Below, piece after piece: positions 3,192 to 21,303 of a DNA stretch of 47,340 nt. Each line of letters opens with the position of its first letter. Within the stretch, counting starts at the first letter, position 1. A model generated the notes under the pieces. That model searched no databases and had not been told where the DNA came from. It worked only from the letters and a program-made list of their open reading frames with translations. The translations under genes and the position numbers were made by a program. The stretch is from Patescibacteria group bacterium (GTDB lineage: Bacteria > Patescibacteriota > Microgenomatia > Woykebacterales > 2-01-FULL-43-14), in the NCBI GenBank assembly GCA_023485445.1, contig JAMCZT010000032.1:1-47340 (forward strand), read 5' to 3'.

Positions 3192-3977
3192 ATGAGACCC
3201 ATTTGGTCAGGATCGATCAGTTTTGGCTTGGTTAATATTCCAGTAAAACTCTTCTCGGCGGTGCACGAAAGGGAAATAAATTTTGATTTACTTCATAAAA
3301 AAGACCTTTCCCCCATCCGTTACGCTCGGGTTTGCGAAACAGAAGACAAAGAGATTGATTTTCATGACCTCGTCCGCGGATACGAGTACGCCAAAGGAAA
3401 TTACGTCGTGGTTGAGCTAGAAGAAATTAAAAAAGCCGACGTAGCCAAAACCCAGACCATCAGCATCGTTGACTTTTCTCCTGAAAAAGACATCGATTCC
3501 ATTTATTTTGAAAAACCTTACTTCATCGCTCCCGATAAAGGATCAGAGAAAGCTTATGCCCTTTTAAGGGAGTCCTTAACGAAAAGGAGCAAGGTCGCGA
3601 TCGCCAAATTTGTCTTAAGGACACGGGAACATCTTGGGGCGATAAAAGCCGATAATAACGTCTTGGTCTTTGAACAAATGCGCTTTTCTGAGGATTTGAG
3701 AAATCCAGCAGAACTAAACCTCCCAACCGCTAGTCTGGTTTCCGAAAAGGAACTGGATATGGCTTACCAATTAATCGACCGCTTAACCGAAAAATTTAAC
3801 CCTGAGAAATACAAAGACACTTACACAGCGGAACTAGAGCAACTTCTCGCAGAAAAAGTAGCGGGGAAGGCGCCAAAAGTAACAGGCAAAGTTCCCGAGC
3901 CAACACCATCCAAAGACCTTATGGAGGCTTTAAAGGCCAGCTTAGAAAAAGAAGTTCGGCCAGCGGCCCAAGCCTAA
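3192..3977 (+). CDS. ku: Non-homologous end-joining protein Ku
   Basis: A 261-residue bacterial Ku homolog. It begins with the hallmark SISFGLVNIPVKL, continues through the Ku beta-barrel core (YVVVELEEIKKA, IYFEKPYFIAPDKG) and ends with an Ala/Lys/Pro-rich tail after about residue 210. Bacterial Ku forms a ring-shaped homodimer that threads onto broken DNA ends and recruits LigD. Eight bases separate it from the ligase gene, and the polymerase gene follows, so the three form one operon. Length and motif order are normal, with no sign of damage. The call is secure. Confidence 0.96.
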   Translation: MRPIWSGSISFGLVNIPVKLFSAVHEREINFDLLHKKDLSPIRYARVCETEDKEIDFHDLVRGYEYAKGNYVVVELEEIKKADVAKTQTISIVDFSPEKDIDSIYFEKPYFIAPDKGSEKAYALLRESLTKRSKVAIAKFVLRTREHLGAIKADNNVLVFEQMRFSEDLRNPAELNLPTASLVSEKELDMAYQLIDRLTEKFNPEKYKDTYTAELEQLLAEKVAGKAPKVTGKVPEPTPSKDLMEALKASLEKEVRPAAQA

Positions 3978-3985
3978 AAAACACC

Positions 3986-5440
3986 ATGGGTTTAGAAACC
4001 TACCAAAAAAAGAGAAAATTTAATGCTACACCCGAACCAAAGGGAGAAATAGCAAAAAGGCGTGAGTCCCGCTTTGTCGTCCAAAAACATGCCGCCACTC
4101 ATCTCCACTATGACTTCCGATTAGAGTCAGGCGGAGTCCTAAAAAGCTGGGCAGTCCCGAAAGGTCCTCCCTTGGACCCAAAAGATAAACGGTTAGCCGT
4201 CATGGTTGAAGACCACCCCATCGAGTATCAAAAATTTGAAGGGGTTATCCCAGAGGGAAATTATGGGGCAGGGACGGTCGAAATCTGGGATAAGGGTCAT
4301 TATTTCACGCTAAACGTCAACAAAGAAAGACAGGAAAAAACCGTCGAAGAAGGTTTGAAGCAAGGGCACTTAGACCTTATCCTGGAAGGTGAAAAACTAA
4401 AAGGCGAATACACCCTGGTCAAAACGAAACTAAGCGAGAAAAGTTGGCTTTTGATAAAGAAAGAAGATCCTTACCTGGCAGTAGAAATGCCAAAGCAGGT
4501 GAAACCAATGCTCGCTACCCTAGTGGGAGAACCTTTCGACAAGGATAGCTGGCTCTTTGAGATGAAAATAGACGGGTATCGAGCAATTGCCGAAGTAAAC
4601 GGGGCAGAAGTGAATTTGTATTCCCGAAATTTTAACTCCTTTAACAATCAGTACCCCCAGATCGTCGACTCTTTGAGAAATCTGGGAAAGGTAGCGGTTC
4701 TCGACGGGGAAATCGCAGTCGTCGATAACGAAGGCAAACCTTCTTTCCAGCTTTTGCAAAATTATCCACGAGAACAGACAGGAAATCTAATTTATTTTAT
4801 TTTTGATTTGCTTTACCTCAACAAGCGTGATCTGCAAGCCCTCCCTTTGACGGAAAGGAAAAATATCTTAAGGCAAAACTTGCCCCCAAGCCCTTTTTTA
4901 AAGTTTACCGATCACATTGAAAAAAACGGAACAGCTTTTTTTAACGCCGCCAAAGAAAAGGGTCTTGAAGGGATCATGGCAAAAGATGGAAAAAGCCCGT
5001 ACCGCCAAGGAAAAAGGACTAAAGAATGGCTAAAAATAAAAACTACCCGTGTGCAAGAAGCCGTCATTGGCGGATTTACTCAACCTAAAGGGAAACGGGG
5101 TTACTTTGGGGCTTTGATTTTAGGGGTTTACGAAGGGAATAATCTGGTTTACGTCGGGCACACTGGAAGCGGGTTTGAGGAAAAAAGCCTGGAAGAGACT
5201 TTTGAAAAGTTAAAAAGGAAAATCTCTCCTGTCTCTCCCTTCAAAAATCCCCCTAAACCCAATGCTCCCGTTACTTGGCTTAGACCAGAAATGGCTTGCG
5301 AAGTAAAATATCAGGAATGGACGAAAGACGGGCACCTGAGGATGCCTATCTTTTTAAGAATGCGCGAGGATAAGCCCCCGAAAGAAATCGGCCGGGAAAA
5401 AATTTTGTCGACGAAAGAAATTTTAAAGGGGAAAAAGTGA
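3986..5440 (+). CDS. ligD: LigD: 3'-phosphoesterase plus ATP-dependent DNA ligase
   Basis: A 484-residue protein joining two of the three LigD modules. Residues about 30-150 are the 3'-phosphoesterase domain (HLHYDFRLE, WAVPKGP, EGNYGAGTV). Residues about 170-370 are the nucleotidyltransferase domain of the ligase, with KIDG motif I giving adenylated Lys194, followed by the OB-fold domain (about 375-475) ending with the usual TWLRPEMACEVKYQEWT signature. It trims 3' ends and seals double-strand breaks held by Ku. The polymerase module is missing from this chain and is encoded by the next gene, which begins at a GTG overlapping this stop codon (GTGA). All catalytic motifs that can be read are intact. 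Confidence 0.95.
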   Translation: MGLETYQKKRKFNATPEPKGEIAKRRESRFVVQKHAATHLHYDFRLESGGVLKSWAVPKGPPLDPKDKRLAVMVEDHPIEYQKFEGVIPEGNYGAGTVEIWDKGHYFTLNVNKERQEKTVEEGLKQGHLDLILEGEKLKGEYTLVKTKLSEKSWLLIKKEDPYLAVEMPKQVKPMLATLVGEPFDKDSWLFEMKIDGYRAIAEVNGAEVNLYSRNFNSFNNQYPQIVDSLRNLGKVAVLDGEIAVVDNEGKPSFQLLQNYPREQTGNLIYFIFDLLYLNKRDLQALPLTERKNILRQNLPPSPFLKFTDHIEKNGTAFFNAAKEKGLEGIMAKDGKSPYRQGKRTKEWLKIKTTRVQEAVIGGFTQPKGKRGYFGALILGVYEGNNLVYVGHTGSGFEEKSLEETFEKLKRKISPVSPFKNPPKPNAPVTWLRPEMACEVKYQEWTKDGHLRMPIFLRMREDKPPKEIGREKILSTKEILKGKK

Positions 5441-6372
5441 TCCAGTCTACCCGGGAAAAATCAACGATCGTCATAATTGATAACAAAGAAGTAAAGCTAA
5501 CAAACCTGGATAAGATTTTTTGGCAAAAAGAAGGGTACACTAAGAGAGATTTAATCGAATATTACCAAAGGATCTCCCCTTTCATCCTTCCCTACTTGGC
5601 CGATCGTCCCGAATCTTTGCATCGCTTCCCAAACGGGGTACGAGGAAAAGGTTTTTTCCAAAAAAATGTTGAATCTCCTCCGCCTTACGTCAAAACGGTA
5701 AAAATTCCCGCAGAAACGGAAAACCGGGTGATTAATTACATCGTTTGCCAGGATCTCGCAACCTTAGTTTACCTCGCAAATTTAGGCTGCATCGAACTTA
5801 ATCCTTGGCTTTCCCGAACCGTCAGCCAACATAGTCCAGATTACTGCGTCTTGGATCTTGATCCAGTCGAAATTGGTTTTGGGGCGGTAGTTCAGACTGC
5901 TTTGGTCATTCACCACCTATTAGAAAAGGCCAGTATTTCCCACTACGTCAAGACTTCTGGAGCGACCGGTTTACATATCTACATTCCTTTAAAAAGCGGC
6001 TACACCTATGAGCAATCCCGCCTTTTTGCCCAAACCATCGCTTCAATAGTCCACCAGAAAACCTCCTCTTTCACTTCATTAGAAAGGCTTCCAGAAAAAA
6101 GGGTGAGTAAAGTCTACCTGGATTATTTGCAAAATGTCTTGGGAAAAACCCTCTCAGCCCCTTACTGCCTTCGACCTAGAGACAGAGCGCCTGTCTCAAC
6201 GCCCCTACTTTGGGAAGAAATAAACGGAAAGTTAGATCCCCCTGATTTTAACATCAAGACCATTTTTAAAAGATTAGGAAAAATAGGCGACATTTGGAAA
6301 CCGCTGCGACAAGAAGGAGTCGACCTAAAGGTGGCACTAGACCGTCTGCAAAAAGTTTCCCAAAAATTTTGA
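5437..6372 (+). CDS. ligD: LigD polymerase/primase domain protein (stand-alone)
   Basis: A 311-residue archaeo-eukaryotic primase-type polymerase matching the LigD polymerase module. VLDLDP places the metal-binding aspartates at residues 140 and 142, and SGATGLHIYIPL (His180) is the second family signature. The N-terminus LTNLDKIFWQKEGYTKRDLIEYY is typical of the module. It adds nucleotides, often ribonucleotides, to break ends before ligation. The start is a GTG that overlaps the ligase stop by four bases, so translation is probably coupled. Compared with the fused LigD of Pseudomonas, the chain is split at a domain boundary. It is convergent with gltX. Confidence 0.93.
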   Translation: MIQSTREKSTIVIIDNKEVKLTNLDKIFWQKEGYTKRDLIEYYQRISPFILPYLADRPESLHRFPNGVRGKGFFQKNVESPPPYVKTVKIPAETENRVINYIVCQDLATLVYLANLGCIELNPWLSRTVSQHSPDYCVLDLDPVEIGFGAVVQTALVIHHLLEKASISHYVKTSGATGLHIYIPLKSGYTYEQSRLFAQTIASIVHQKTSSFTSLERLPEKRVSKVYLDYLQNVLGKTLSAPYCLRPRDRAPVSTPLLWEEINGKLDPPDFNIKTIFKRLGKIGDIWKPLRQEGVDLKVALDRLQKVSQKF

Positions 6373-7948: not shown

Positions 7949-9037
7949 ATGACATTATCTGAAGTTGCCGAGTCTTGCCGCAAGTTTATCCGTTGGGGAA
8001 TCGTTGGCATCATTGCGCTATTTATCCTGATTTCTCTCTGGAACGCAGCTTATAATTACTGGCAAGCAACTCATCCAAAACCTCCACCAAAACCAACCGT
8101 CGCGTTCGGAAAATTACCAGTTCTTTCGACCCCGCCGTCTTTGGTTAATCTCACTAACCTAAAGTTAACTTTGGAAACGATCAACGGAAAGACCCCGGAA
8201 GTCCCGACAATCTTGCCGGTTTACGTCATGCCGCATCCTCAACCAAACTTGCTAAATGATGAAAATGCCAAGAAAGTTGCCTTAGCTTTTGGTTTCAAAA
8301 ATGATCCGACGGTAAACTCAAAAACCGAATACCTTTGGAACGACCCAAACTTGCCGAATCAAAGTTTTAAAATTAACCCTTTAAATGGGAATTTTGAATA
8401 CCGTTACGATTACGTTAACGATCCATCTGTCTTGAACAAGCCACTTTCGATCAAGAAAGAGGACGCCATTAATTTAGCCAGAGGCTTTGTAGGCAGTCAC
8501 GTGTCTTTGCCGGATGACCTATCGGGCGCTTCTTCCTCCGTTGAATTTCTAAAAATCACGCAGGGCGCGGAAGAAGTCGTTGATTCGCCTTCTGATGGCA
8601 ACGCCATCAGGGTCAACCTTTCTCGAAAAGATCTCGAATTCCGTGATAAAAAATACCCTCTCATTACCCCAAGCCCGAAAGTCTCTTTAGTAAGAGTACT
8701 TATCTCACCCAGCGAAGATAAAAGAGTTCTAACCGTTAATTACGTTTACTGGCCAATCGAAATTCAAAACAGCTCCACATACCCGATAAAAACTGCAGAG
8801 CAAGCCTGGGGAGAAATCCAAAACGGTTTTGGGACGTTAGTCTACTTGGAAAGACCAAACCTAGTCAGTGCTGGTATCCAAAATATCTCCCTTGCTTACT
8901 ATGATGACGAGCAACCCCAAAATTTTCTCCAGCCGATTTATGTTTTTTCTGGAATCGGTTACACCAAAGACGGTCTTCGTTCCTCTTTCATCATTTATTT
9001 ACCAGCGGTAACTGGAGAATATATAGTTAAGCAGTGA
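7949..9037 (+). CDS. Hypothetical membrane-anchored extracytoplasmic protein
   Basis: A 362-residue protein with one N-terminal membrane segment (about residues 17-38, GIVGIIALFILISLW), a Pro/Lys-rich spacer, and a large domain of about 300 residues on the outer face. The soluble part contains many beta-strand-like stretches and an NYVYWPIEI motif. No catalytic signature is recognised. An AGAGGA ribosome binding site lies about eight bases before the ATG. The last 39 bases overlap the 3' end of the convergent dacA gene. Function unknown; a cell-envelope role is inferred only from topology and neighbours. Confidence 0.65.
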   Translation: MTLSEVAESCRKFIRWGIVGIIALFILISLWNAAYNYWQATHPKPPPKPTVAFGKLPVLSTPPSLVNLTNLKLTLETINGKTPEVPTILPVYVMPHPQPNLLNDENAKKVALAFGFKNDPTVNSKTEYLWNDPNLPNQSFKINPLNGNFEYRYDYVNDPSVLNKPLSIKKEDAINLARGFVGSHVSLPDDLSGASSSVEFLKITQGAEEVVDSPSDGNAIRVNLSRKDLEFRDKKYPLITPSPKVSLVRVLISPSEDKRVLTVNYVYWPIEIQNSSTYPIKTAEQAWGEIQNGFGTLVYLERPNLVSAGIQNISLAYYDDEQPQNFLQPIYVFSGIGYTKDGLRSSFIIYLPAVTGEYIVKQ

Positions 9038-10000
9038 GGAAGTTTCTCCGAACCGATCGGAGGAATTTAAGAGAACGCTCACTACCCGATGCTTATCTTT
9101 CGTTGCGGAAGCCACCAGGCATTGACCTGCTTCTTGGGTCCAACCGGTTTTTACTCCGTCTATCCAATCTTGCCCAAGCAGACTATTTGTGCTTTCTAAG
9201 TCGTGCCAATAAACCTTGTCCACACTGCTAATGTTAATCCGCTTGGTCTTAATAATCTTGTTAAAAAAAGGGTTTTTTAAAGCGTAAGCAGTCAAATAAG
9301 AAAAATCTCTTGCCGTAGTGAAATGGTTTTTCTCAGGCAAGCCAGAAGAATTTACAAAGTGAGTATTTTTCATATTCAATTCTTCGGCTTTTTTATTCAT
9401 AGAGTAAATAAATTGTTCATATCCACTTGGATAGCTTGCGGCTAAAACATAAGCGGCGTCATTACCAGATTTAACTAGCAAACCGTAGAGAAGGTTTTCG
9501 ACGCTTATCCTCTCACCCTCTACTAACCCCATTAGACTGCCTTCAGTCTGCAAGTTAGAAACCGTCAAGACATCAGTTAACTTGTACGCCTCTAAAGCTA
9601 CCACCGCCGTCATTATTTTTGTCGTCGAGGCTGGGGCTAAAGGAGTATCCAGATTTTTCTGGAAAAGCACTTTGGCCGAGTCAAGGTCAAGGACTAGGGC
9701 AGAAGTAGCGGTCAGCTCAGGTGGTGAACTTTTCACAGTCATGACTGGATAAACCGCGGGAGAAGGCACGGAAAAAGGAAGCGCCTTGACTAATGGTTCT
9801 TTAAGAATTAACTTTTCAGATTCGTAAGGGTTGTTGACAGGGTTCATCGAAAAGAAAATAAAAACAATTGCGGAGGTAAAAACGAACAAAACGGTTGTTT
9901 TTCTTTTACTGAATAGCTTACGAGAGAGGCGGTCTGCCCAACTTTTAAGGTAGGACGTCAAAGTTGAGAGGTATCCTTTAGCTTCATTTCTTTCCATCAT
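8999..10000 (-). CDS. dacA: D-alanyl-D-alanine carboxypeptidase (PBP5-like, peptidase S11)
   Basis: A 333-residue penicillin-binding protein that trims the terminal D-Ala of peptidoglycan stem peptides. A membrane anchor spans about residues 37-51. The active-site motifs are complete and in order: SxxK (Ser125, Lys128 in ASTTK), SGN at 178-180 and KTG at 284-286. It lacks the C-terminal domain and amphipathic helix of enterobacterial PBP5. Its start overlaps the stop of the upstream reading frame by 17 bases. Its 5' half lies in a 904-bp direct duplication: this copy is the intact one, and the other copy is the chimeric gene directly upstream. Confidence 0.9.
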   Translation of the reverse strand: MMERNEAKGYLSTLTSYLKSWADRLSRKLFSKRKTTVLFVFTSAIVFIFFSMNPVNNPYESEKLILKEPLVKALPFSVPSPAVYPVMTVKSSPPELTATSALVLDLDSAKVLFQKNLDTPLAPASTTKIMTAVVALEAYKLTDVLTVSNLQTEGSLMGLVEGERISVENLLYGLLVKSGNDAAYVLAASYPSGYEQFIYSMNKKAEELNMKNTHFVNSSGLPEKNHFTTARDFSYLTAYALKNPFFNKIIKTKRINISSVDKVYWHDLESTNSLLGQDWIDGVKTGWTQEAGQCLVASATKDKHRVVSVLLNSSDRFGETSSLLNYIFSSYRW

Positions 10001-10366
10001 CTTTGAATTTCGCTAAGGAGATGTCAATGCGGGTAACGTCCCTGGGGAAAAGGGCAGCCTCGCGGATATTGTCGGCCCCGATTATTTTCGCTGTCAGCCT
10101 TTCCAACCCGATGGCTAATCCCCCTTCCGCCGGCATGCCGTATTTAAAGGCTTGGAGATAAAAACTAAAATTTTCCGGCTTTATGCTTCTTTTTTTCATG
10201 CTTTCCACTAATTGGTCATAATCGTTAATGCGTTGCCCGCCAGTGGTTATCTCAACTCCTCGGAAAAGCAAGTCAAAACTTTTTGTGTATCCTGGGTCGG
10301 ATTCGTCAGGCATAGTGTAAAGCGGCCTGTGCTCAACTGGCTGATGGGTCACGAAAACAAACTCGC
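9463..10366. repeat. 904-bp tandem duplication, copy 1
   Basis: This unit runs from within dacA through the dacA/aspS overlap into the 3' third of aspS. The identical sequence follows immediately at 10367-11270. The boundary word TACCAGATTT occurs at 9463, 10367 and 11271, exactly 904 bases apart each time. It is the only homology at the original endpoints, so it marks a junction formed at ten bases of microhomology. No mismatch was seen in the stretches compared by eye. Confidence 0.95.
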
Positions 10367-10904
10367 TACCAGATTTAACTAGCAAACCGTAGAGAAGGTT
10401 TTCGACGCTTATCCTCTCACCCTCTACTAACCCCATTAGACTGCCTTCAGTCTGCAAGTTAGAAACCGTCAAGACATCAGTTAACTTGTACGCCTCTAAA
10501 GCTACCACCGCCGTCATTATTTTTGTCGTCGAGGCTGGGGCTAAAGGAGTATCCAGATTTTTCTGGAAAAGCACTTTGGCCGAGTCAAGGTCAAGGACTA
10601 GGGCAGAAGTAGCGGTCAGCTCAGGTGGTGAACTTTTCACAGTCATGACTGGATAAACCGCGGGAGAAGGCACGGAAAAAGGAAGCGCCTTGACTAATGG
10701 TTCTTTAAGAATTAACTTTTCAGATTCGTAAGGGTTGTTGACAGGGTTCATCGAAAAGAAAATAAAAACAATTGCGGAGGTAAAAACGAACAAAACGGTT
10801 GTTTTTCTTTTACTGAATAGCTTACGAGAGAGGCGGTCTGCCCAACTTTTAAGGTAGGACGTCAAAGTTGAGAGGTATCCTTTAGCTTCATTTCTTTCCA
10901 TCAT
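9984..10904 (-). CDS. Chimeric DacA-AspRS fusion created by tandem duplication
   Basis: A 306-residue open frame whose first 179 residues are identical to DacA (membrane anchor, SxxK motif) and whose remainder is identical to the last 127 residues of AspRS (motif 3, GGLAIGLERL). The join falls at KSG/SEF within the shared ten-base word and happens to be in frame. It has lost the Asn of the SGN motif and the whole KTG region, and it has only part of the AspRS core, so neither enzyme activity is expected. Both its start and its stop keep the same 17-base overlaps with its neighbours as the parent genes. It sits between intact aspS and intact dacA. It is either a very recent duplication or an assembly artefact. 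Confidence 0.8.
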   Translation of the reverse strand: MMERNEAKGYLSTLTSYLKSWADRLSRKLFSKRKTTVLFVFTSAIVFIFFSMNPVNNPYESEKLILKEPLVKALPFSVPSPAVYPVMTVKSSPPELTATSALVLDLDSAKVLFQKNLDTPLAPASTTKIMTAVVALEAYKLTDVLTVSNLQTEGSLMGLVEGERISVENLLYGLLVKSGSEFVFVTHQPVEHRPLYTMPDESDPGYTKSFDLLFRGVEITTGGQRINDYDQLVESMKKRSIKPENFSFYLQAFKYGMPAEGGLAIGLERLTAKIIGADNIREAALFPRDVTRIDISLAKFKDDGKK

Positions 10905-11270
10905 CTTTGAATTTCGCTAAGGAGATGTCAATGCGGGTAACGTCCCTGGGGAAAAGGGCAGCCTCGCGGATATTGTCGGCCCCGATTATTTTCGCTGTCA
11001 GCCTTTCCAACCCGATGGCTAATCCCCCTTCCGCCGGCATGCCGTATTTAAAGGCTTGGAGATAAAAACTAAAATTTTCCGGCTTTATGCTTCTTTTTTT
11101 CATGCTTTCCACTAATTGGTCATAATCGTTAATGCGTTGCCCGCCAGTGGTTATCTCAACTCCTCGGAAAAGCAAGTCAAAACTTTTTGTGTATCCTGGG
11201 TCGGATTCGTCAGGCATAGTGTAAAGCGGCCTGTGCTCAACTGGCTGATGGGTCACGAAAACAAACTCGC
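10367..11270. repeat. 904-bp tandem duplication, copy 2
   Basis: This is the second exact copy of the 904-bp unit. It contributes the 3' part of intact aspS and the 5' part of the chimeric gene. The right boundary at 11271 repeats the word TACCAGATTT and is followed by unique aspS sequence (CTCCGCCACATAG). Confidence 0.95.
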
Positions 11271-12246
11271 TACCAGATTTCTCCGCCACATAGGCGGAGA
11301 AATCCCGCTCATCCTGAGGGGAAAGATCTGGCTCGTGCAAGACTTTCCGGCCAAATTCCTTTTCGATTATCTTTTGGGCCTCCCTTAACTTAAAACTAGG
11401 AATTTCCTTCACTTCCGGCAGTTTAACTCCTAGAAAACCAACTTCCGTTTTTGCCGCTTGTGCCAAATATGGAAAAAGGTACTTCAAAAAATCAACTTCC
11501 AAAGCCATTACGTCCGTGTGGTCTTTTATAAAACCAAATTCGAAATCTAAACTGGTGTATTCGTTTAGGTGACGAGTCGTGTTGTGTTCTTCAGCGCGGT
11601 AAACCTCGCCAATAGTAAAAACTCTCTCGTAAACCCCGACCATAATTTGCTTATAAAATTGGGGGCTTTGGGCGAGAAACGCTTTACGGGAAAAATAGTC
11701 AACGCGAAAAACATTTGCCCCACCTTCCGTGGCTTCGGCGGTAATTTTTGGGACAAAAACTTCCGTAAATCCACGTTCGGCCAAAAAGTCACGAAAAGCA
11801 CGGACAATTTCTGCCTCGATCCTAAAAATGGCCCTGTTCTTAGCGTGGCGCAGAGTCAAGGGGCGATAGTCTAGAGCCGTGTCGAGGTTAATCTCCAGGT
11901 CTTTGGCACCAAAGTCAAAAGGCAAAGTTTCCGCGTCACTAATTAATTCAACTTTCTTGGCTTCGACTTCCACCGTTCCGGTAGGCAAATCTGGATTTTC
12001 CGATCCCTTCGGCCGAGCATTCACAGTACCAACCAAAGAAATCACATCTTGTAAACTCAAGGTTGAGGCAACCTCATGAGCTTCCGTCGAAACCTTCGGG
12101 TTCACCACTACTTGCACTGTCCCCGAGTAATCGCGAACATCAAGAAAAATCAATTTCCCATGATCCCGCCGGCTCTCGACCCAACCCTTAAGAAGCACCT
12201 CTTGTCCAACTTTTTCAATTGTCTCAATAATTAAGTTTCGTTCCAT
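10888..12246 (-). CDS. aspS: Aspartyl-tRNA synthetase, archaeal/non-discriminating type
   Basis: A 452-residue class II synthetase. An N-terminal OB fold (LKGWVESRRDHGKLIFLDVRD) binds the anticodon. The catalytic core has FTIGEVYRAEEHNTTRHL (motif 2 region) and GGLAIGLERLTAKI (motif 3). It lacks the large GAD insertion of standard bacterial AspRS, and its length and motifs match the archaeal-type enzyme, which often charges both tRNA-Asp and tRNA-Asn. The ATG at 12246 (MERNLIIETIEK) is preferred over one six codons upstream by homology. The 3' third lies in the 904-bp duplication, but this copy is complete. It heads the aspS-chimera-dacA overlap chain. Confidence 0.92.
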   Translation of the reverse strand: MERNLIIETIEKVGQEVLLKGWVESRRDHGKLIFLDVRDYSGTVQVVVNPKVSTEAHEVASTLSLQDVISLVGTVNARPKGSENPDLPTGTVEVEAKKVELISDAETLPFDFGAKDLEINLDTALDYRPLTLRHAKNRAIFRIEAEIVRAFRDFLAERGFTEVFVPKITAEATEGGANVFRVDYFSRKAFLAQSPQFYKQIMVGVYERVFTIGEVYRAEEHNTTRHLNEYTSLDFEFGFIKDHTDVMALEVDFLKYLFPYLAQAAKTEVGFLGVKLPEVKEIPSFKLREAQKIIEKEFGRKVLHEPDLSPQDERDFSAYVAEKSGSEFVFVTHQPVEHRPLYTMPDESDPGYTKSFDLLFRGVEITTGGQRINDYDQLVESMKKRSIKPENFSFYLQAFKYGMPAEGGLAIGLERLTAKIIGADNIREAALFPRDVTRIDISLAKFKDDGKK

Positions 12247-12433
12247 ACTTACGGAATGTATCAAGTATAAAGTATTTAGTATTAAGTATGAGAAAAAAAG
12301 TTTTATTCATTATACTTAATACTTGATACTTAATTCTATTGTCATTATCCGACAAATAGCCCCCAGGCGTCAAATGGAAAATGTAAGGGTTACTCCGAGC
12401 GCCATTGCAAGCGATAGATGGAGGCAAGATGTG
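12247..12433. other. Intergenic gap with iterated AT-rich repeat
   Basis: No gene is supported here. The stretch 12257-12335 consists of variants of a TACTTAA/TACTTGA unit on both strands and can fold into a hairpin with a perfect 12-bp stem (AGTATTAAGTAT at 12278-12289 with its complement at 12312-12323). It separates the aspS promoter region from the end of the first PsbP-like gene and may act as a weak bidirectional transcription barrier. Short reading frames across it are low-complexity and lack ribosome binding sites. Confidence 0.5.
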
Positions 12434-13546
12434 TTAGTTACTTTCTTGAAGAGATGTGATAAGGGAGCTAAAAATACTTTGATAGTTTTCGTTCGTTTTT
12501 TGTTTCAGAAATAAGCAATAGAGGTTATTTCCTTTTTCAATATAAACAACCTGCCAATACTTTCCGACATCACTCGGGTTACTTTTTTCATTCATCACCC
12601 CCGTTACTCTAGTTGCTGTTCCGAATGGAGTATTTAGTGTATCCTGAGTAGTGTTTGTCAAATATCCCTTATCATTTGTAATTATTTGGGTAGTTGTAAA
12701 CCCATTTGATTCCAAACGATGTACGTAAACGTTAATTTCACTCTCCCACTTATTAGGACTAAACCGAGCTTGTCCAAAATCAGCTCCAGTATCTGTTTCT
12801 GTCTTTATTTCCCAAGTTGAAGGGTATTTGATTGTGTACCCAATAGCAGGAGATAAATTTGTACTCTTATAAGTATATGTTTTCCAATCAGCAGTTGAAT
12901 CGGTTTGACTTTGGTCGGTGAATTTGAAGGTGGAGAGGATTTGGTTAAATATGGCCATATCACTATCTACAGTAGCATAGACGCTTAGAGTTTTTTTACC
13001 AACATTTAATGGTAGATCAAGCCTGATTGTACATTTAGGAGCACACTGATTAGTTCGGTAATAGTGCCCTTTAACACCACTTATAGTCATCTCTTTATAC
13101 TCTGTAATGAGATCAATCCCATTTTGGTTTTGATTACTAGTTGGAGATGTGCTGAAAGGTCGGGTTAAAACTTCAATACCCATAACTGGAACTTTTGATT
13201 GATCAATAGTGTTATTTTCAAAGCTACCTTCAAAGCTACCAATATTAGGAGGATAGAATTTCGTTGAGATAGTATTTTCAACATAAGTCCAATCCTTGGG
13301 ATATTTGACAGAGTAGCCATAAAGATTATTTGTATATGTTTTCCAATTTGCTGTAGCACTCGGAGAAGCTGAAGAAGTGCTGGTTTTGGAAGTGGGAACG
13401 CTAGTGTTATCGGTTGATTTGGGAGTGATTGAAGCTTGATAGTAGGTACCAGCAAAAAAGGCAATAAAAGGAAGGGTGATGAAAACAATCCCGGCGAGGA
13501 TTTTGGAAGTGTTAGTAACAGTTGTTAATTCTTTCGGCAGTTCCAT
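12434..13546 (-). CDS. Membrane-anchored two-domain PsbP-like protein, paralog A1
   Basis: A 370-residue surface protein: a short cytoplasmic start (MELPKEL), one membrane helix (about residues 15-36), a Ser/Thr-rich spacer (STSSASPSA), then two PsbP-like domains. Each domain opens with a WKTY...YPxxW signature (YSVKYPKDWTYVE; YTIKYPSTWEIKT), and they are joined by the linker ILSTFKFTDQSQTDS. The domain call rests on the YPxxW pattern and the fold-like strand order; the function is unknown. The ATG at 13546 is chosen over one three codons upstream because all paralogs start here and a -10 box ends exactly seven bases before it. A transposase remnant is inserted right upstream of its promoter. 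Confidence 0.75.
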   Translation of the reverse strand: MELPKELTTVTNTSKILAGIVFITLPFIAFFAGTYYQASITPKSTDNTSVPTSKTSTSSASPSATANWKTYTNNLYGYSVKYPKDWTYVENTISTKFYPPNIGSFEGSFENNTIDQSKVPVMGIEVLTRPFSTSPTSNQNQNGIDLITEYKEMTISGVKGHYYRTNQCAPKCTIRLDLPLNVGKKTLSVYATVDSDMAIFNQILSTFKFTDQSQTDSTADWKTYTYKSTNLSPAIGYTIKYPSTWEIKTETDTGADFGQARFSPNKWESEINVYVHRLESNGFTTTQIITNDKGYLTNTTQDTLNTPFGTATRVTGVMNEKSNPSDVGKYWQVVYIEKGNNLYCLFLKQKTNENYQSIFSSLITSLQESN

Positions 13547-13553
13547 TGAAATC

Positions 13554-13582
13554 ATTATCTTTCTCTAGGAATCGATTGTCAA
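13554..13582 (-). promoter_or_regulatory. Leaderless promoter of paralog A1
   Basis: TTGACA (13577-13582), a 17-base spacer and GATAAT (13554-13559), ending seven bases before the ATG at 13546. The transposase remnant ends just six bases beyond the -35 box, so the promoter survived the insertion. Confidence 0.65.
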
Positions 13583-13587
13583 GTAGG

Positions 13588-14650
13588 TGTCCTGGATCAA
13601 TACTTTTGAGACAACCCTCCTTTTAGGTAACACTGATAAGGTGATAAATATCTAAGCGATTGATGCGGTCTAACATTATTGTACCAGTTAACCCAAGTAT
13701 TTAGTTTTTCTTGAAACTCTTCCGGGTACAGTAGATAATCTTCCCGTTTCAAACAGAAACTCATCTTGAATTGTCCAATTAAACCTTTCGACATAACCGG
13801 TGGTTTTAGGATGTCTTGGGTAATTCCAGAGGGGAGTTAACTTAGCTTCTTTTACTGCCTCTCCAAAGAAAGATTCAAACTCACTCCCGTTATCAGTCTG
13901 AATAGTGTGAACTTTGTACCAGGCCGTCTGAATAATCTCTTCTAAGAATTTAGCCGCACGAAGGCTTTTTAAAGACGGGACGATCTTTAACCAAGCTTGT
14001 TTGGAGACAATGTCGACCGCGGTTAAGAAGTAGTAATACTTCTCCAGGTAGTAGAACTTAACTCCGTCTAGTTGAATATATCCGGATACCTGATCTTTTG
14101 AGTTAGGACACAATCTGACTCTTTGTTTGTTTCCGTTCTGTTTTACTCTTTTTCCAGTCGGCTTACCAGCGAAGAAGTAATGTTTTCGCTTAATTAACCT
14201 ACCAATAGAGGCAGACGAAGAGGAAGCATCAGTTAAGGACAACGTAGCGCATAAAGCTTTAACAAATCCTTCAATTTTCATCTTACCCATTCTGGGATGA
14301 TCTTCTCTGAGTTGTTTTACCAGCTTAACTACGGCTGGATCTTCTTCTGGAACTCTGAAGGTATGAGGTCTCGTACTTTTTGGAATCAAGGAATTTAACT
14401 TCTTCCCAGACTTCTCGAAAATCTTCTTCCAGCGATACAGAGTTGGCCGGGAAAGCTTCGGAAAGGCTAATTTTATGCCTCCCAACCACCCTCATAGAAG
14501 ATGTTTAGGATGTGGAGTCTAAATTGGGCTTTGTCTGAAGTATCAAACCTAAGACTACGATATACAGTATTAGAATACTTTCGTCTACGATAAGTTATCT
14601 TGTTAAAATCGGCTGGCAATTTACTTTAATTGTCTCAAATGTGTTTGATC
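13588..14650 (-). mobile_element. IS481/IS3-like insertion sequence, degenerate
   Basis: An element bounded by imperfect inverted repeats: GATCAATACTTTTGAGACAA at 13595-13614 and its inverted partner at 14630-14650 (GATCAAACAC-ATTTGAGACAA). A possible outer TGT lies at 13588. It encloses one DDE transposase gene with two frameshifts. It is inserted between the 3' end of the hepT remnant and the promoter of paralog A1. The family name is tentative and rests on the transposase layout. Confidence 0.65.
13597..14619 (-). pseudogene. DDE (rve-type) transposase, two frameshifts
   Basis: The product would be about 340 residues. The N-terminal part starts at a TTG (14619, MPADFNKITYRRRK) and carries the helix-turn-helix (LSRPTLYRWKKIFEK). 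The catalytic core has all three acidic residues: Asp in YIQLDGVKF, Asp in QTDNGSEF and Glu in GYVERFNW. The C-terminus ends NNVRPHQSLRYLSPYQCYL. Frame 1 ends at about 14487 after GGWEA, and the next frame resumes with IKLAFPK. A second shift near 13752 separates DEFLF from KREDYLLYPEEFQ. Each is explained by a one-base change. The layout resembles IS481 or IS3-OrfB transposases. It is probably inactive unless both shifts are errors or programmed. Confidence 0.75.
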
Positions 14651-14993
14651 TTTTTCAGCATCTCTAGTCAACTCTTTCATCCGTTTCTTGAGTCGCGGTA
14701 AATCCTCTTTAATCGTTTTCCAGAGGATTTCCAAGTCCACCCCGAAATACTCATGAAGAACTTTATTTCTCATACTGATCATTTCTTTCCAAGGGGCATC
14801 CGGATGGCTTAATTTAAACTCGGACGATATTTCTCGCCGCCTCCCCGATTATTTCCAAATTTCGAATCACCGCGTCAATGGTCTTGGCATCAGTGTAGAA
14901 ATCGTCTTGGGAAAGATCTTTCGTAAATTGCTTAATTTTCTTCAGGGAAATTAAAATGTCGTCTAAGTAGAGGTCGGCCGTTCTTTTAGACAT
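14621..14993 (-). pseudogene. hepT: HepT-like (DUF86) toxin, frameshifted
   Basis: A HepT/DUF86 protein of about 124 residues if repaired. The N-terminal frame MSKRTADLYLDDILISL runs through the family signature NLEIIGEAARNI and then stops early. A one-base gap restores the frame to SSEFKLSHPDAPWKEMISM and the toxin motif RNKVLHEY (R-x4-H-x-Y), which is intact. The start overlaps the mntA stop by eight bases, the usual arrangement of MntA-HepT modules, where MntA adenylylates HepT to block its RNase. The last ten codons (DQTHLRQLK) lie inside the inverted repeat of the neighbouring insertion sequence, so the natural C-terminus was replaced. The toxin is likely dead. Confidence 0.7.
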
Positions 14994-15291
14994 AAACCGT
15001 TTCTTTCAAAACGTTATCTTTGATCCTTTGTTTAATGGCTTTTTTGGTCACTAAATCAACCTTGCGGCCGAGAATTTTACTCAAGGACTCCTCCAGCTCC
15101 ACAAATTTAAAAAAACCAATCGGCTCGGAAAAATCCACTAAAATATCCACATCACTTCCAGCGACGTTTTCATTTCTGGCTACCGAACCAAAAACCCCGA
15201 TTTGCTTAACATGATAATCTTTTCGGAGCTGCTCTCTATGGCTATCAATTTTACTTTTGACTTGATCTAAAGTTCCGACTGCTTTTTTCAT
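14986..15291 (-). CDS. mntA: MntA-like nucleotidyltransferase antitoxin
   Basis: A 101-residue minimal nucleotidyltransferase with the GSx10DxD signature: Gly35-Ser36 in GVFGSVARN and Asp47, Asp49 in SDVDILVDF. In MntA-HepT systems this enzyme transfers AMP to a tyrosine of HepT. The start at 15291 (MKKAVGT) is chosen over a frame extension of nine codons because the upstream stretch is a duplicated intergenic sequence also found before hicB. A TTATCA box lies seven bases before it. Its partner hepT overlaps it but is frameshifted, leaving an antitoxin without a functional toxin. Confidence 0.8.
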   Translation of the reverse strand: MKKAVGTLDQVKSKIDSHREQLRKDYHVKQIGVFGSVARNENVAGSDVDILVDFSEPIGFFKFVELEESLSKILGRKVDLVTKKAIKQRIKDNVLKETVYV

Positions 15292-15381
15292 AGCCAAATG
15301 ATAACACAAAACAAACAAAAATTCATCAGGGAATCGTGGAGAAAAAAATTATTTAGTGAATTGGAAGGTGGAAAGGATTTG
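15283..15381. repeat. ~95-bp segment duplicated at 17433-17529, copy 1
   Basis: The sequence from the MKK start of mntA through the intergenic gap to the end of paralog A2 (encoding ILSTFQFTK-stop) closely matches 17433-17529, which lies between hicB and a stranded ILPTFKFTE-stop fragment. Shared words include ATGATAACACAAAACA and AAAAATTCATCAGGGA. Confidence 0.8.
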
Positions 15382-16464
15382 ATTAAATACTGTCTCACCC
15401 TCTCGGACTTTTGAACCATCAACAGGAGTATCAAGCGCTATGCTATATACTAACTCCTCATCTTTAGAAAAGAATGACACGCCATAAGTATTTTCTGCTC
15501 CTGCTCGTGGAAGAACTTTTACTGCTTGCTGACTACCAACATTAAGAGTGTCTCTATCATACGAAGATCCCCCAAGTTCTTTGAGGCTAGCATAGGGCTT
15601 CTTTGTTTGATCATTATAATTTTTTTGCTCTCTTATCGAAAGCTTGTATACACTTTGTTCATCTTGAAAAACTTCAGTGCCGTGAAAGTTGGAAGAATGC
15701 TCAACTTGTTTCCATGTAGAAGGCAGTTTTATCTGGTAACTTTCATACCCTAAAGATGAGTCTGAGGTAATCTTATACGTTTTCCAGTTAGCAGTTGAAT
15801 CAGTTTGACTTTGATCGGTGAATTTGAAGGTGGAGAGGATTTGGTCAAAAATGTCCTTTGAAGTTTTAGAGGAGTAAATAATTTCTATTTCGTAAGTCTT
15901 TGCGTTGTTTAAAACTTTGGCGATTGTTCCAGTAAACGCTGGATTCCCTTTCTCTTGGAAATCCCATTCGATACCCGATTTGCCGTCGACTGTAATGCTT
16001 TTTACAGATAGCACCTCTTTATCCGTTACAGTATCTGAACCCTTAATCACCTGACCTACGGATCGTGTAGGCAAAGTGGAAACAGAACTTGTGCTAATAA
16101 AGATTTTCGCCCCACTCGTTGCCTGTTCTTCTAATTTATTCTTATCGTCTTGCCTAAAATCAGCACTTTCAATACTCACTGACCCATTTAAATTGTCCGC
16201 TACACTCCAGCTGTTAGGGTATTTTAAAGTAAATCCCAGAGTAGAATTTGAATATGTCTTCCAATTCGCAGTTGCGCTCGTAGTCGCAGAAGAAGTGCTG
16301 GTTTTGGGGGTTGAAACAACGGTGCTATCGGTAGACTTAGTTGCAATAGAAGCTTGGTAGGTGGCACCAATAAAGAAAGCGGCGAATGGTAAACTCACGA
16401 AAACAATCGCGGCGAGGATTTTAGAGGTGGTAGTAACAGTCGTTAGCTCTTTTGGCAGTTCCAT
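15349..16464 (-). CDS. Membrane-anchored two-domain PsbP-like protein, paralog A2
   Basis: A 371-residue member of the local family. The anchor cassette (MELPKELTTVTTTSKILAAIV, helix about residues 15-36) and STSSATTSA spacer precede domain 1 (LGFTLKYPNSWSVADN) and, after the ILSTFKFTDQSQTDSTANWKTY linker, domain 2 (YQIKLPSTWKQVEHS). It ends ILSTFQFTK, a third partial copy of the linker word, so the linker is really the C-terminal strand of each domain. The domains share little sequence with those of A1. It has its own promoter, and mntA follows 57 bases downstream. Confidence 0.75.
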   Translation of the reverse strand: MELPKELTTVTTTSKILAAIVFVSLPFAAFFIGATYQASIATKSTDSTVVSTPKTSTSSATTSATANWKTYSNSTLGFTLKYPNSWSVADNLNGSVSIESADFRQDDKNKLEEQATSGAKIFISTSSVSTLPTRSVGQVIKGSDTVTDKEVLSVKSITVDGKSGIEWDFQEKGNPAFTGTIAKVLNNAKTYEIEIIYSSKTSKDIFDQILSTFKFTDQSQTDSTANWKTYKITSDSSLGYESYQIKLPSTWKQVEHSSNFHGTEVFQDEQSVYKLSIREQKNYNDQTKKPYASLKELGGSSYDRDTLNVGSQQAVKVLPRAGAENTYGVSFFSKDEELVYSIALDTPVDGSKVREGETVFNQILSTFQFTK

Positions 16465-16471
16465 TAAAATT

Positions 16472-16500
16472 ATTAACTCACTTTTCTACATTTTCGTCAA
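16472..16500 (-). promoter_or_regulatory. Leaderless promoter of paralog A2
   Basis: TTGACG (16495-16500), 17 bases, GTTAAT (16472-16477), ending seven bases before the ATG at 16464. The sequence between the -10 box and the ATG resembles the equivalent stretch in front of paralog A5. Confidence 0.6.
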
Positions 16501-16559
16501 GAAAATACCCAAATTATAGGGTATGTTGACAAATTACGCCTTTTAGAGTAGTATTAGAA

Positions 16560-17228
16560 TTAAGAAACTTGCTTCGGATGGGTGCTTGCACCGGTTCGGG
16601 CAAGTTTTTTATTTTGAAAAACTCTTCTTTTTACTTCCTTCCAGTTCAGTCTCTTTTCTCTAATTATCCTTTCCCGAATTATTTCATAAAATATAAAGTT
16701 CTTTTTTGTTTCTTTAGCCAGAACAGCTCCTGCGACCATATCGGCAACATTAATCAACCTGTTCTTCGCACTATCAACATGAGAGATAACAAGTGATTTG
16801 TGAAGAAGTTGTGGTAAAAAACGATTAAATTCTTCCGTTTCGGAAACTCTAGAAAAATGTCGATCTAGAATTATTTCGCAAGGGTCTGAATAAAAGCTAA
16901 AAACATCATTAAGGAGTAGCCAGCAAAGAAAGGCAAAATTTTCTGGAGTATCGGGAATCTTCTTCCCCGCTTTTTCAACGATTAAAACGAAAATATCAAG
17001 CCCTTCTTCCACCACTTTTTGTAGAAATAACCTTTTCGTCTTCTCGCCCGCGGAGTAAAATTTGATCTCTTTGCTAAGATCTTTTAGTTTGCCTTTCCTT
17101 CTTAGAAATTTGATTATCCCCTCAATCTTTTTCGCGTCTTCGGTTCCAGCCGCCGCGACAATAACCACTTCGTCCCTTGGGTCCGGTAAAGTTCCCGATT
17201 CGTCAATAAAAATACTAATTCTTTTCAT
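16560..17228 (-). CDS. DUF3800 domain protein
   Basis: A 222-residue protein with the DUF3800 pattern: ISIFIDESG at the N-terminus (Asp9, Glu10), a central LDRHFSR, and a C-terminal HVDSAKNRLINVADMVAGAV corresponding to the conserved D...ADxIAG motif. The family is thought to have an RNase H-like fold and is common near mobile elements and defence genes, but its biochemical role is not established. It begins 15 bases after the hicB-like stop and is probably cotranscribed with it. The last codons form a hairpin-capable stretch. Confidence 0.8.
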   Translation of the reverse strand: MKRISIFIDESGTLPDPRDEVVIVAAAGTEDAKKIEGIIKFLRRKGKLKDLSKEIKFYSAGEKTKRLFLQKVVEEGLDIFVLIVEKAGKKIPDTPENFAFLCWLLLNDVFSFYSDPCEIILDRHFSRVSETEEFNRFLPQLLHKSLVISHVDSAKNRLINVADMVAGAVLAKETKKNFIFYEIIRERIIREKRLNWKEVKRRVFQNKKLARTGASTHPKQVS

Positions 17229-17243
17229 AAATTACCAAAGGAA

Positions 17244-17441
17244 TCAAGATTGAGGAAATTGAAAAGGTTGTAACTGAGTGCCCTCTTGGTAAAGTCCCAT
17301 GGCCTCTTGTAAATTTTTCAAAGCCTCTTCGTAGGTTTTACCAAAACTAGAAACACCCACGTTAAGACACTGAGCTATAAAATATTTGCCCTCTTTCCAA
17401 ACAACATTAGTAAAAACCTGATCTTCAGATACTTTTTTCAT
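17244..17441 (-). CDS. HicB-like antitoxin-family protein
   Basis: A 65-residue protein with the partial RNase H fold of HicB: VFTNVVWKEGKYFIAQCLNVGVSSFGKTYEEALKNLQEAM, where the YEEALxNLxEA helix is the family hallmark. It lacks a separate DNA-binding C-terminus. No HicA toxin (small double-stranded RNA-binding-like protein) is found on either side; a DUF3800 gene follows instead. The start at 17441 (MKKVSEDQ) is chosen over a nine-codon extension that lies in duplicated intergenic sequence. A TTATCA box precedes it by seven bases. Confidence 0.75.
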   Translation of the reverse strand: MKKVSEDQVFTNVVWKEGKYFIAQCLNVGVSSFGKTYEEALKNLQEAMGLYQEGTQLQPFQFPQS

Positions 17442-17529
17442 AGCTAGATGATAACACAAAACAGACAAAAATTCATCAGGGATCGTAAGAGAAATTATTC
17501 GGTGAATTTGAAGGTGGGGAGGATGTTGC
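17433..17529. repeat. ~95-bp segment duplicated at 15283-15381, copy 2
   Basis: This is the second copy of the MKK-to-ILSTFKFT segment. Here the linker fragment (minus strand ILPTFKFTE followed by a stop, about 17498-17530) is no longer attached to a gene: the preceding paralog stops at 17538 in other sequence. It is therefore the stranded C-terminus of a lost PsbP-like paralog. Confidence 0.75.
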
Positions 17530-17537
17530 CCCTTACG

Positions 17538-19054
17538 TTATTTAACGCATTTACTAAAATCAAGGGAGTTATTTACCTTTATACTCTTTAACAAATTACT
17601 AAATTCTTGGCTATCCTTTCCTCGATTATTCCAACTGATTATTAAGGCATAATTGCCAATAGAAACTACGACTCCTGATCCAGAACCTGAGTCACCTAAT
17701 GGTCCCGCTTCTATAATTAAACTATTTTTATCCTGAATTAGAACTTCCTCAAAACGATAGTAGTAACCATCCTCTATCCCATAAAGCTGCCGTCGAGAGC
17801 CTCCATTGTAGGTGACTACTTTAGCCTTGAGAATCCCTCCTACATCATTACCAAAAACTATGGCACACTCTCCATTACTTAGCTGTTCGCCAAGTTTATC
17901 AGCATTATAGAACGCCTTAGGATGTTGGAACGAGTACCCGACAGACGAAACAAATGTCTCCCAACTATCAACTTTTCCATAATCTATTTTTCTAGCCGAG
18001 AAAGAAACAGATTCAAAGTCTAACTGGCTTCGGTCGGTGAATTTGAAGGTAGAAAGGATTCGGGTAAGCATTGTTTCGGCAGAATTAGCGTTTTTGGACA
18101 AAAATGCCATTTGAATGTTGTTAAAGTATGCAAGATCCTTAACATCAATAGGATTTATAATAACTAGTATCGATTCATTTTTATAGGTTAACTTCCGATA
18201 ACTGAAGTGCTTTCCTCCAAAATTTACGACTTTTTCCTCCTCCTTTTCCGGGGGATCTAAACCCCTACCCCATCTTCGATAGAAAGTTTATACCCTTCCA
18301 TAAAAGACAACCTGATCTGCACAGGGAATGAGTCGTCTAGGATCCCGTTAGAAGGATATTTAAACGAATAATTTTTTTGAGTGTTTGTATACGTTTTCCA
18401 GTTAGTGGTTGAGTTGGTTTGACTTTGGTAGGAAAAGTCGAAAGTAGAAAGAATCTGACCAACGGTTTTTTGATACCCTCGATTATTCCCATCACGGACA
18501 TTTTCAGTAATCCTTATAAACAGTTCTTCTGCATAAGGTAAAAATATGTACTTTGTGGTCACTTCGCTAGCAACAGTGTAAGTATAACCTGAATATCTTC
18601 CCACTTTTGTTTCAGTTAAAGGCTTGTCTAGACCAAAAATTTTACCTTGACCGTTACTAATTTCTTCTTCAATAAACTCTCTTAACGTCTTTGAATTTAA
18701 TTTTTCGATCAAAAAAGTTAGGCGATATCCAGGCTTCATCTCTACACCATCCGAAGAATTAGGTTCTGCGTAACTTACAATAACTTCCCCGTTTTCTAGC
18801 TCATGTAGATCAGCGTCTGAAGGGTAATTAAATGTGAATTTATTTCTTACTTTATATGTTTTCCAATTAACCGTAGCCGAAGAGGTACTGGTTTTGGGAG
18901 TCGAAACAACATTTGTATCGGTTGATTTAGGTGTCACTGAGGCTTGGTAAGTGGTGCCAGCAAAGACAGCGATAACGGGAAGTGTTACGAAAACAATCGC
19001 GGCAAGAATCTTTGAAGTTCTAGTAACAGTGATTAATTCTTTCGGCAGTGTCAT
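17538..19054 (-). pseudogene. PsbP-like paralog A3, three-domain, frameshifted
   Basis: Read through one frameshift, this is a protein of about 505 residues. It has the anchor cassette (MTLPKELITVTRTSKILAAI), domain 1 (FTFNYPSDADLHELEN), a diverged linker (ILSTFDFSYQSQTNS), domain 2 (YSFKYPSNGILDDSF), the linker ILSTFKFTDRSQ and domain 3 (YSFQHPKAFYNADK). The first frame stops after LSIEDGVGV near 18263, in a G-rich run, and the next frame continues LDPPEKEEEKVVNFGGKHFSY. One added base restores it. The 3' part could start at an internal ATG (18110) but would lack an anchor. It is the last gene of an operon with A5 and A4 and begins three bases after the A4 stop. Confidence 0.7.
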
Positions 19055-19057
19055 AGC

Positions 19058-20164
19058 TCACTTCGAAACCTCAACTGAGGATAAAACTTTTTGCATATCC
19101 TCAGTACTTATGTATTGGGAACCAGTGACATAAAATGGCAAGCTATTTTGCACCCCCATATAGTAAGAAGAATTATTAAATGCAGACAGCCCTTGCGGCC
19201 AACCGGAAACCTTTAGGTAACTTTTACCATTGCTAAAACTAATCTCTTCGAATATTAAGTTGGAAAAGTCCCAGCTTGAATACATCGAACTTAAGTTCTT
19301 CTTTAACCATTCTCTTCTTGATTCTCCTTTATACGCATACTGAAAATCTCGATATAGGTAAATGGAAGCAACAGTTTTTGCGCTGGAGCCCTTACCATTC
19401 AGTAAATCAACGCCTTCTGATGAATTTGAGGCTAATTGTCTCTCCTTCACGGTAAACTCTTTCGGATACCTTAGCTTAAAATTAGTACCTTCAACTACTT
19501 TGTTGAAGGTACTCCAACTATTGGGAATGCTAACCTCGGTTTGATTCTGGTCGGTGAATTTGAAGGTGGAGAGGATCTGATTAAAAAATGTGAGGTCATC
19601 TCCACCCGGAGTATATAAGGAATAAACATCTTCTCCGTACTGAACAAAGGCAATCGCTGCCTTTTTCTCGCTAGGATAAATTGCTAGACCAGATATGATT
19701 GTAAAATTTAAACCACTAATCGATACAGCGTTATCTTCTTCTATTGTCATATAGATATTATTAGCATCTTTTTGTTTTTGGTTAGTAATTGTTGTATTGG
19801 GAACAAATGAAAGATTATAAGATAACGGGGTATCTATCGACCCTCCTGGATCTTCTGGAGCAAAGGCAATCGATTTAGACCCATTTTTTCCTTTCTGTTC
19901 CTGTTGAAAGTACCAAGAAGAAGGAGTTTTAAACAACAGTTTTTCAAGTGTGGTGGTTTTCCAATTCGCTGTCGCACTCGGAGAAGCTGAAGAAGTGCTG
20001 GTTTTGGAAGTGGAAACGCTAGTGTTATCGGTTGATTTGGGAGTGATTGAAGCTTGATAGTAGGTACCAGCAAAAAAGGCAATAAAAGGAAGGGTGATGA
20101 AAACAATCCCGGCGAGGATTTTGGAAGTGTTAGTAACGGTCGTTAGCTCTTTTGGCAATTTCAT
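19058..20164 (-). CDS. Membrane-anchored two-domain PsbP-like protein, paralog A4
   Basis: A 368-residue paralog. Its first 70 residues are almost identical to A1 (KELTTVTNTSKILAGIVF...STSSASPSATANWKT), and then the sequences diverge completely. Domain 1 has LLFKTPSSWYFQQEQ and ends ILSTFKFTDQNQT. Domain 2 has FKLRYPKEFTVKER and is clearly related to domain 2 of A5 (shared LSNLIFEEISFSNGKSYLKV-type stretch and a GVQNSLPFYVT ending). It starts five bases after the A5 stop without a ribosome binding site, which suggests reinitiation or coupling. Confidence 0.75.
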   Translation of the reverse strand: MKLPKELTTVTNTSKILAGIVFITLPFIAFFAGTYYQASITPKSTDNTSVSTSKTSTSSASPSATANWKTTTLEKLLFKTPSSWYFQQEQKGKNGSKSIAFAPEDPGGSIDTPLSYNLSFVPNTTITNQKQKDANNIYMTIEEDNAVSISGLNFTIISGLAIYPSEKKAAIAFVQYGEDVYSLYTPGGDDLTFFNQILSTFKFTDQNQTEVSIPNSWSTFNKVVEGTNFKLRYPKEFTVKERQLASNSSEGVDLLNGKGSSAKTVASIYLYRDFQYAYKGESRREWLKKNLSSMYSSWDFSNLIFEEISFSNGKSYLKVSGWPQGLSAFNNSSYYMGVQNSLPFYVTGSQYISTEDMQKVLSSVEVSK

Positions 20165-20169
20165 ATTTT

Positions 20170-21303
20170 TTATTTTGTAACTTCAATTGTAGACAATACC
20201 CTTAATAAATCTTCGTTGCTTAGAGCCTTACCATTCGTTACAAAGAAAGATATCCCATTTTGTATACCTAAGTAAAAAGCCTTACCCTTAAACATTTCGT
20301 TTGGCCAGTTTGTTATTTTTAGATAACTTTTTCCATTATCGAAAACAATTTCATCAAATATTAAATTAGAAAGATCAACGTCGGTATAATACTTTCCTAA
20401 AACTTCTTTAAACCAAACTCGCCTAGAACCTGTATTATATTCAGTAAAAGTGCTGGCAAAAAATTTAGAATTTGAGTTTATATCAGCTGTGTCCAGGCTA
20501 CCCTCTTTACCCACATATATGTCCCCTGAGGATGGATCATTATCACTTATCCCATATCTCGAAGGGTACTTAAACTTGAAATACGCGTCGCCGAAGAACT
20601 TATTGTAAGTTTTCCAATCAGAAGGAATCGTCATGCTAATTTTGTTCTGGGAAGAAGTATTCTCATCGGTTTGGGTTTGATCAGTGAATTTGAAGGTGGA
20701 AAGGATTTGGTCAAGCTGTTGTTGGGTCACAACATCTTTAAGTCCAAAATATTCAATCGCGACAAGTTGGTCCTGAAAAGTAATAAAGTAGGAATCATAA
20801 AGTGAAGTATCAGAACCTTGCAACGATGCGTCAGTTTTGTATTGAGTCAAGTTTCCAGTGTACCCACCTACAGTAACATTCTTTTCTAAAACTCGCTTAG
20901 TCCCTTCAACACCATGCCCATATCTGAAATCGGCACTCTTTGTAGCAGCATAAACGAAAAGATTAGATTTTTTATCAGAAGAAGAGAATTCTAAGTTGAG
21001 CATGTTATTAGCACTGGATGACGAACCTAAAACTAAAGTAGTTGGATACTTAAATGACAGTCCGTAGGTTGAATTTGAGTAAGTTCTCCAGTCAGCCGTT
21101 GCTGAAGAGGTGCTAACAGTATTCGCGGAGGAAGTACTAGTCTTAGGAGTGGAAACGACGTTTGTATCCGTTGATTTGAGAGTCACTGAAGCTTGATAGT
21201 AATTACCAGCAAAAAAAGCGATAAAGGGAAGGCTCACGAAGACAATCGCCGCGAGGGTCTTAGAAGTAGCGGTAATGGTAGTTAATTCTTTAGGCAGTTC
21301 CAT
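20170..21303 (-). CDS. Membrane-anchored two-domain PsbP-like protein, paralog A5
   Basis: A 377-residue paralog heading the A5-A4-A3 operon. The spacer after the membrane helix is longer, with the STSSA unit duplicated (STSSANTVSTSSATADW). Domain 1 carries LSFKYPTTLVLGSS and ends ILSTFKFTDQTQT. Domain 2 carries FKFKYPSRYGISDN and ends VLSTIEVTK. Domain 2 is homologous to that of A4, whereas domain 1 is not, which indicates domain exchange. Its promoter ends seven bases before the ATG. All paralogs are predicted to expose their domains outside the cytoplasmic membrane. Confidence 0.75.
   Translation of the reverse strand: MELPKELTTITATSKTLAAIVFVSLPFIAFFAGNYYQASVTLKSTDTNVVSTPKTSTSSANTVSTSSATADWRTYSNSTYGLSFKYPTTLVLGSSSSANNMLNLEFSSSDKKSNLFVYAATKSADFRYGHGVEGTKRVLEKNVTVGGYTGNLTQYKTDASLQGSDTSLYDSYFITFQDQLVAIEYFGLKDVVTQQQLDQILSTFKFTDQTQTDENTSSQNKISMTIPSDWKTYNKFFGDAYFKFKYPSRYGISDNDPSSGDIYVGKEGSLDTADINSNSKFFASTFTEYNTGSRRVWFKEVLGKYYTDVDLSNLIFDEIVFDNGKSYLKITNWPNEMFKGKAFYLGIQNGISFFVTNGKALSNEDLLRVLSTIEVTK

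Follow-up and report, generated by a model that had tools for sequence, protein, structure and literature searches.

Tandem duplication between 9-bp border matches (TDAH) has been described in E. coli and B. subtilis, with a frequency of ~3.6e-11 in one strain (PMC11111574). Earlier work cited in the same paper (Anderson and Roth 1978) described tandem duplications of the Salmonella his operon in which genes were fused at the join point. In addition, artificial concatenation has been reported in metagenome assemblies, in cases that lacked proper read support, and a guide to such errors (PMC7111523) includes miscounted repeats and falsely joined copies of one segment among the known ones.

Here, we describe an exact tandem duplication in the window, that is, the whole 47,340-nucleotide stretch of DNA analyzed from a member of the Patescibacteria. 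The duplication resembles the TDAH events in its short border matches (10 bp here), whereas those events were engineered and marker-selected. As in the his duplications, so far as the citing paper summarizes them, the novel joint fuses parts of neighboring genes and full copies lie outside; in that summary, however, the fusion gave silent genes a new promoter and was selected, whereas no benefit is visible here and the locus comes only from a draft assembly. The assembly artefacts likewise consist of identical segments, each hundreds of bases long, arranged head to tail, but a junction of 10 bp that lies within two genes does not clearly take such a form. We consider it fairly probable that the locus represents a real, recent, probably transient and microhomology-mediated tandem duplication with an inert hybrid gene. 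The observation is correct and ordinary in kind, and the type of event is well known.

The duplicated unit and its ancestral state

A maximal exact match of 914 bp with zero mismatches, offset by 904, was found in the window between 9463-10376 and 10367-11280; the identity broke off abruptly at either side. Such an exact repeat is not a product of chance. Scanning of the window located TACCAGATTT on the plus strand at 9463, 10367 and 11271; it is a 10-bp match common to dacA and aspS, and the junction was placed on it. The initial annotation, which had proposed an exact 904-bp duplication marked by these three occurrences and joined at ten bases of microhomology between the two genes, was therefore correct on these points. 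Just two copies of the 904-bp unit were present in the entire 43-contig assembly. The features of the locus are listed in Table 1.

Table 1. Features of the duplicated region and of other genes in the window.
Feature	Position	Strand	Remark
Ku	3192-3977	+	
LigD phosphoesterase-ligase	3986-5440	+	
LigD primase-polymerase	5437-6372	+	
dacA-like, D-Ala-D-Ala carboxypeptidase (Peptidase_S11), 333 aa	8999-10000	-	intact
Unit copy 1	9463-10366	.	identity continues to 10376 via 10-bp match
10-bp match, dacA side	9463-9472	.	codes KSG in conserved KSGN/SxN stretch
Hybrid ORF, 306 aa	9984-10904	-	in frame; DacA 1-179 + AspRS C-terminus
Unit copy 2	10367-11270	.	identity continues to 11280
10-bp match at novel dacA/aspS junction	10367-10376	.	
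aspS, non-discriminating-type aspartate--tRNA(Asn) ligase	10888-12246	-	intact; NF003483 over cut-off
10-bp match, aspS side	11271-11280	.	
recA	44248-45288		

In the single-copy form of the dacA/aspS region, three direct 10-bp matches with a spacing of at least 100 bp were found (2.0 expected by shuffling), and no direct match longer than 10 bp was present. The existence of some 10-bp match in dacA and aspS is at chance level; that the junction coincides precisely with one of the three longest is not. The corresponding AspRS stretch reads EKSGSEF here and EKLGSEF in the nearest relative compared, a member of the same family (G001), so the match to the KSGN motif of DacA looks accidental.

The locus of this relative has the order secF, recJ, aspS, dacA, a convergent hypothetical gene and gltX, in single copy and with an aspS/dacA overlap of 20 bp. 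The same gene order with a single copy indicates that the duplication is derived. The locus thus combines identical head-to-tail copies, a match at both parental ends that occurs once at the joint, and a single-copy ancestral arrangement in a relative, as in a microhomology-mediated tandem duplication. The aspS-dacA pair, often overlapping, is widespread in the class (L004-L037), and dacA directly followed aspS in at least 27 of the 33 loci fetched, comprising 22 within the limit of the script and five with larger overlaps of the called ORFs (L005, L009, L021, L022 and L030).

In a class-wide search of 374 genomes, including the source genome, the only full-length hybrid match among the matches listed (E to ~1e-34) came from the source genome itself, and none came from the other 373. 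A true hybrid elsewhere would rank near the top of such a list, and the duplication is so far private to its source among the matches listed. Scanning of the genome contigs recovered relatives of each half and no hybrid. One match spanning query residues 105-297 (G034) was rejected as an over-extended AspRS alignment, since this genome has a 440-residue AspRS frame with dacA as a separate ORF downstream (L007).

A mobile element was also rejected as the cause: the unit consists of dacA and aspS parts alone, without transposase, recombinase or terminal inverted repeats. The 40-mer across the junction was not found in viral contigs.

One other exact tandem duplication longer than 100 bp was identified in about 1.24 Mb from other genomes of the class, namely in a genome of the same order (G005, L102:14281-14881). 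It spans 302 bp at an offset of 299 within a Lon-like ORF, and a second such case indicates that these events occur in these genomes. It is similar to the present duplication in its exact copies and the few matching bases at its joint, but it is shorter, has an exact joint match of only 3 bp, is out of frame and lies within a single gene. Exact tandem duplications, real or not, are uncommon yet not unique in the class.

Support for the junction and the copy number

The window is contig C10 of an assembly of 899 kb in 43 contigs with 88.6% completeness. The ends of its contigs overlap one another by 127 bp, which points to a de Bruijn graph with k=127. A 10-bp match is too short to bridge such a graph; the joint should therefore rest on junction-spanning reads, and the assembler could not invent it from 10 bases. 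The copy number of two would be the assembler's choice, as short reads could not fix the count.

A few shared families of 127-190 bp were observed among the contig ends of the source genome (L039-L075 and both window ends), several of which resembled the ends of transposase genes by eye, from which it seems that this genome holds several insertion sequences in multiple copies. The assembler halted at dispersed repeats, suggesting that paired reads probably failed to bridge repeats of about that size. Contigs C5-C7 of this genome (L043-L045, about 2.7 kb) consisted entirely of N.

These features bear on an assembly or library artefact, in which chimeric reads at the 10-bp match, or a small loop walked twice, would have doubled a region that is single copy in the true genome. 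The gap closer of SPAdes accepts overlaps near 10 bases; an error at that step, however, would require read pairs facing outward in its support, as well as dead ends precisely at the match. An artefact would fit a draft in 43 contigs with k=127 graph ends and a repeat that exceeds short-read length and, to judge from the contig breaks at transposase-like repeats, probably also the insert. In addition, the 914-bp repeat is the sole within-contig exact repeat longer than 127 bp in the approximately 606 kb of the assembly read, and this class of error is on record (PMC7111523). Nevertheless, the graph demands reads across the junction, low-coverage chimeric links are usually pruned, and no alternative version of the unit was found on any leftover contig of the 43-contig assembly. 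We consider an artefact rather unlikely, as a serious minority reading.

A real junction might also reflect a copy number other than two, with either a longer array of head-to-tail units or a free circle of 904 bp in some cells. Duplication, array and circle would all yield the same junction, and short-read graphs would not separate them; the unit, however, has no recombinase, origin or known element, and the junction is the sole hint of such a form, which we regard as very improbable.

We infer that the duplication is real DNA and young. In a real and recent duplication, the 904-bp unit would have arisen between chance 10-bp matches in dacA and aspS, by slippage or replication template switching between short repeats or by microhomology end joining. 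It would be carried by the bacterial population, or part thereof, and the repeat may later collapse by recombination, recA being present in the window.

The hybrid reading frame

On the minus strand, the gene order was aspS, hybrid ORF and dacA. The native aspS/dacA overlap is 17 nt here and is present twice, at both ends of the hybrid. Intact parents and a hybrid with the same overlaps follow from a tandem duplication that ends in two adjacent codirectional genes, and the in-frame joint had a one-in-three chance. The initial annotation had described intact parent genes, normal start and stop overlaps, and an in-frame hybrid of 306 residues between the parents, in agreement with the ORFs at 8999-10000, 9984-10904 and 10888-12264. 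The aspS ORF was called by the ORF tool from a TTG at 12264; the true start of AspRS is probably the ATG at 12246, which matches the relative.

The hybrid corresponds to DacA over 179 residues and to AspRS over its last 130, with KSG common to both at the joint (around LLVKSGSEFVFV). Motifs were read from a mixed DacA/AspRS alignment (A1), which served for motif reading only because its rows are not homologous over their full length. The N-terminal anchor of DacA and SxxK (STTK) are retained, SxN is altered (SGN to SGS) and KTG is gone. The hybrid thus lacks the full set of SxxK, SxN and KTG that a functional S11 D-Ala-D-Ala carboxypeptidase has. Similarly, it has neither AspRS motif 1 nor motif 2, nor anything ahead of the last 130 residues of AspRS, and the Pfam OB domain is missing. 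The AspRS remainder includes the motif-3-like stretch GLAIGLERL, which we take to be motif 3 of the class II synthetases. A functional class II AspRS, with an OB-fold anticodon domain and motifs 1, 2 and 3, is therefore not encoded. AlphaFold prediction of the hybrid from a single sequence was uninformative (pLDDT 35.7). From its lost motifs, the hybrid protein would be expected to have no activity and would probably be degraded.

A new functional gene, encoding a membrane-anchored AspRS fragment under selection, was weighed against these results. Its ORF is open, in frame and has an overlapping start as in dacA. The in-frame joint would let ribosomes reach the intact dacA start, and the frame might thus be tolerated or favored; past the joint, the other two frames reach a stop after 5 and 10 codons, and an out-of-frame stop could possibly uncouple translation of the downstream dacA, acting as a mild filter for frame. 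However, the catalytic motifs of both parents are lost, and, with the anchor of DacA, the AspRS part would end up on the outer side of the membrane, far from tRNA and ATP. Moreover, the hybrid shows zero divergence from its parents, the frame is merely a one-in-three outcome, and no hybrid occurred in the 373 other genomes among the matches listed. A new gene is accordingly highly improbable, and a hybrid that is expressed and beneficial, a fusion gene at birth possibly formed by the products of the Ku-LigD genes 3 kb away, is likewise highly improbable.

The hybrid gene almost certainly has no use and arose as a by-product when DNA was recently copied wrongly; alternatively, it may stem from an assembly error. 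Three options had been offered in the initial annotation: the dosage-neutral duplication about to collapse is the best supported, the assembly error keeps the minority weight given above, and the new fusion gene is not upheld, as the features in its favor are automatic or one-in-three, catalytic motifs are missing and no relative carries one among the matches listed.

If real, the locus is a young tandem duplication from an uncultured bacterium and exemplifies a well-known process; should it be an artefact, it illustrates a route by which a false fusion enters databases. Caution is needed because gene callers will report a third, hybrid protein, and annotated DacA-AspRS fusions are not evidence of a new architecture.

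Neighboring genes

The genes for Ku and the two LigD parts form an operon on the plus strand (3192-6372), about 3 kb from the duplication. Within the class, five of 374 genomes yielded Ku and three of 351 the LigD polymerase domain; neither was found in G001 or G002. The polymerase domain of G140 and G145 is part of one long ORF (629 and 821 aa, respectively) beside Ku, and LigD therefore looks split here. Ku-LigD joining at microhomology has been described in bacteria (Malyarchuk 2007, as referred to in PMC7719229). It is possible, if unproven, that Ku-LigD end joining caused the duplication; one coincidence of location proves nothing, and slippage requires no Ku-LigD. The rare operon is the more useful by-product of this analysis and could allow the relation between end joining and microhomology duplications to be tested in this group.

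The relative has aspS and recJ side by side; here, the minus strand between them encodes about six related proteins (12434-21303), several of them PsbP-like, together with an rve-type transposase remnant and a DUF3800 gene. Apart from the 914-bp match, the only sizeable repeat within the window has an offset of 6618 and is exact over at most 123 bp. Most pairs of the related proteins are 40-48% identical; their N-termini are better conserved, and blocks of their DNA are identical over up to 123 bp. The cluster appears to have expanded locally and shows signs of gene conversion.
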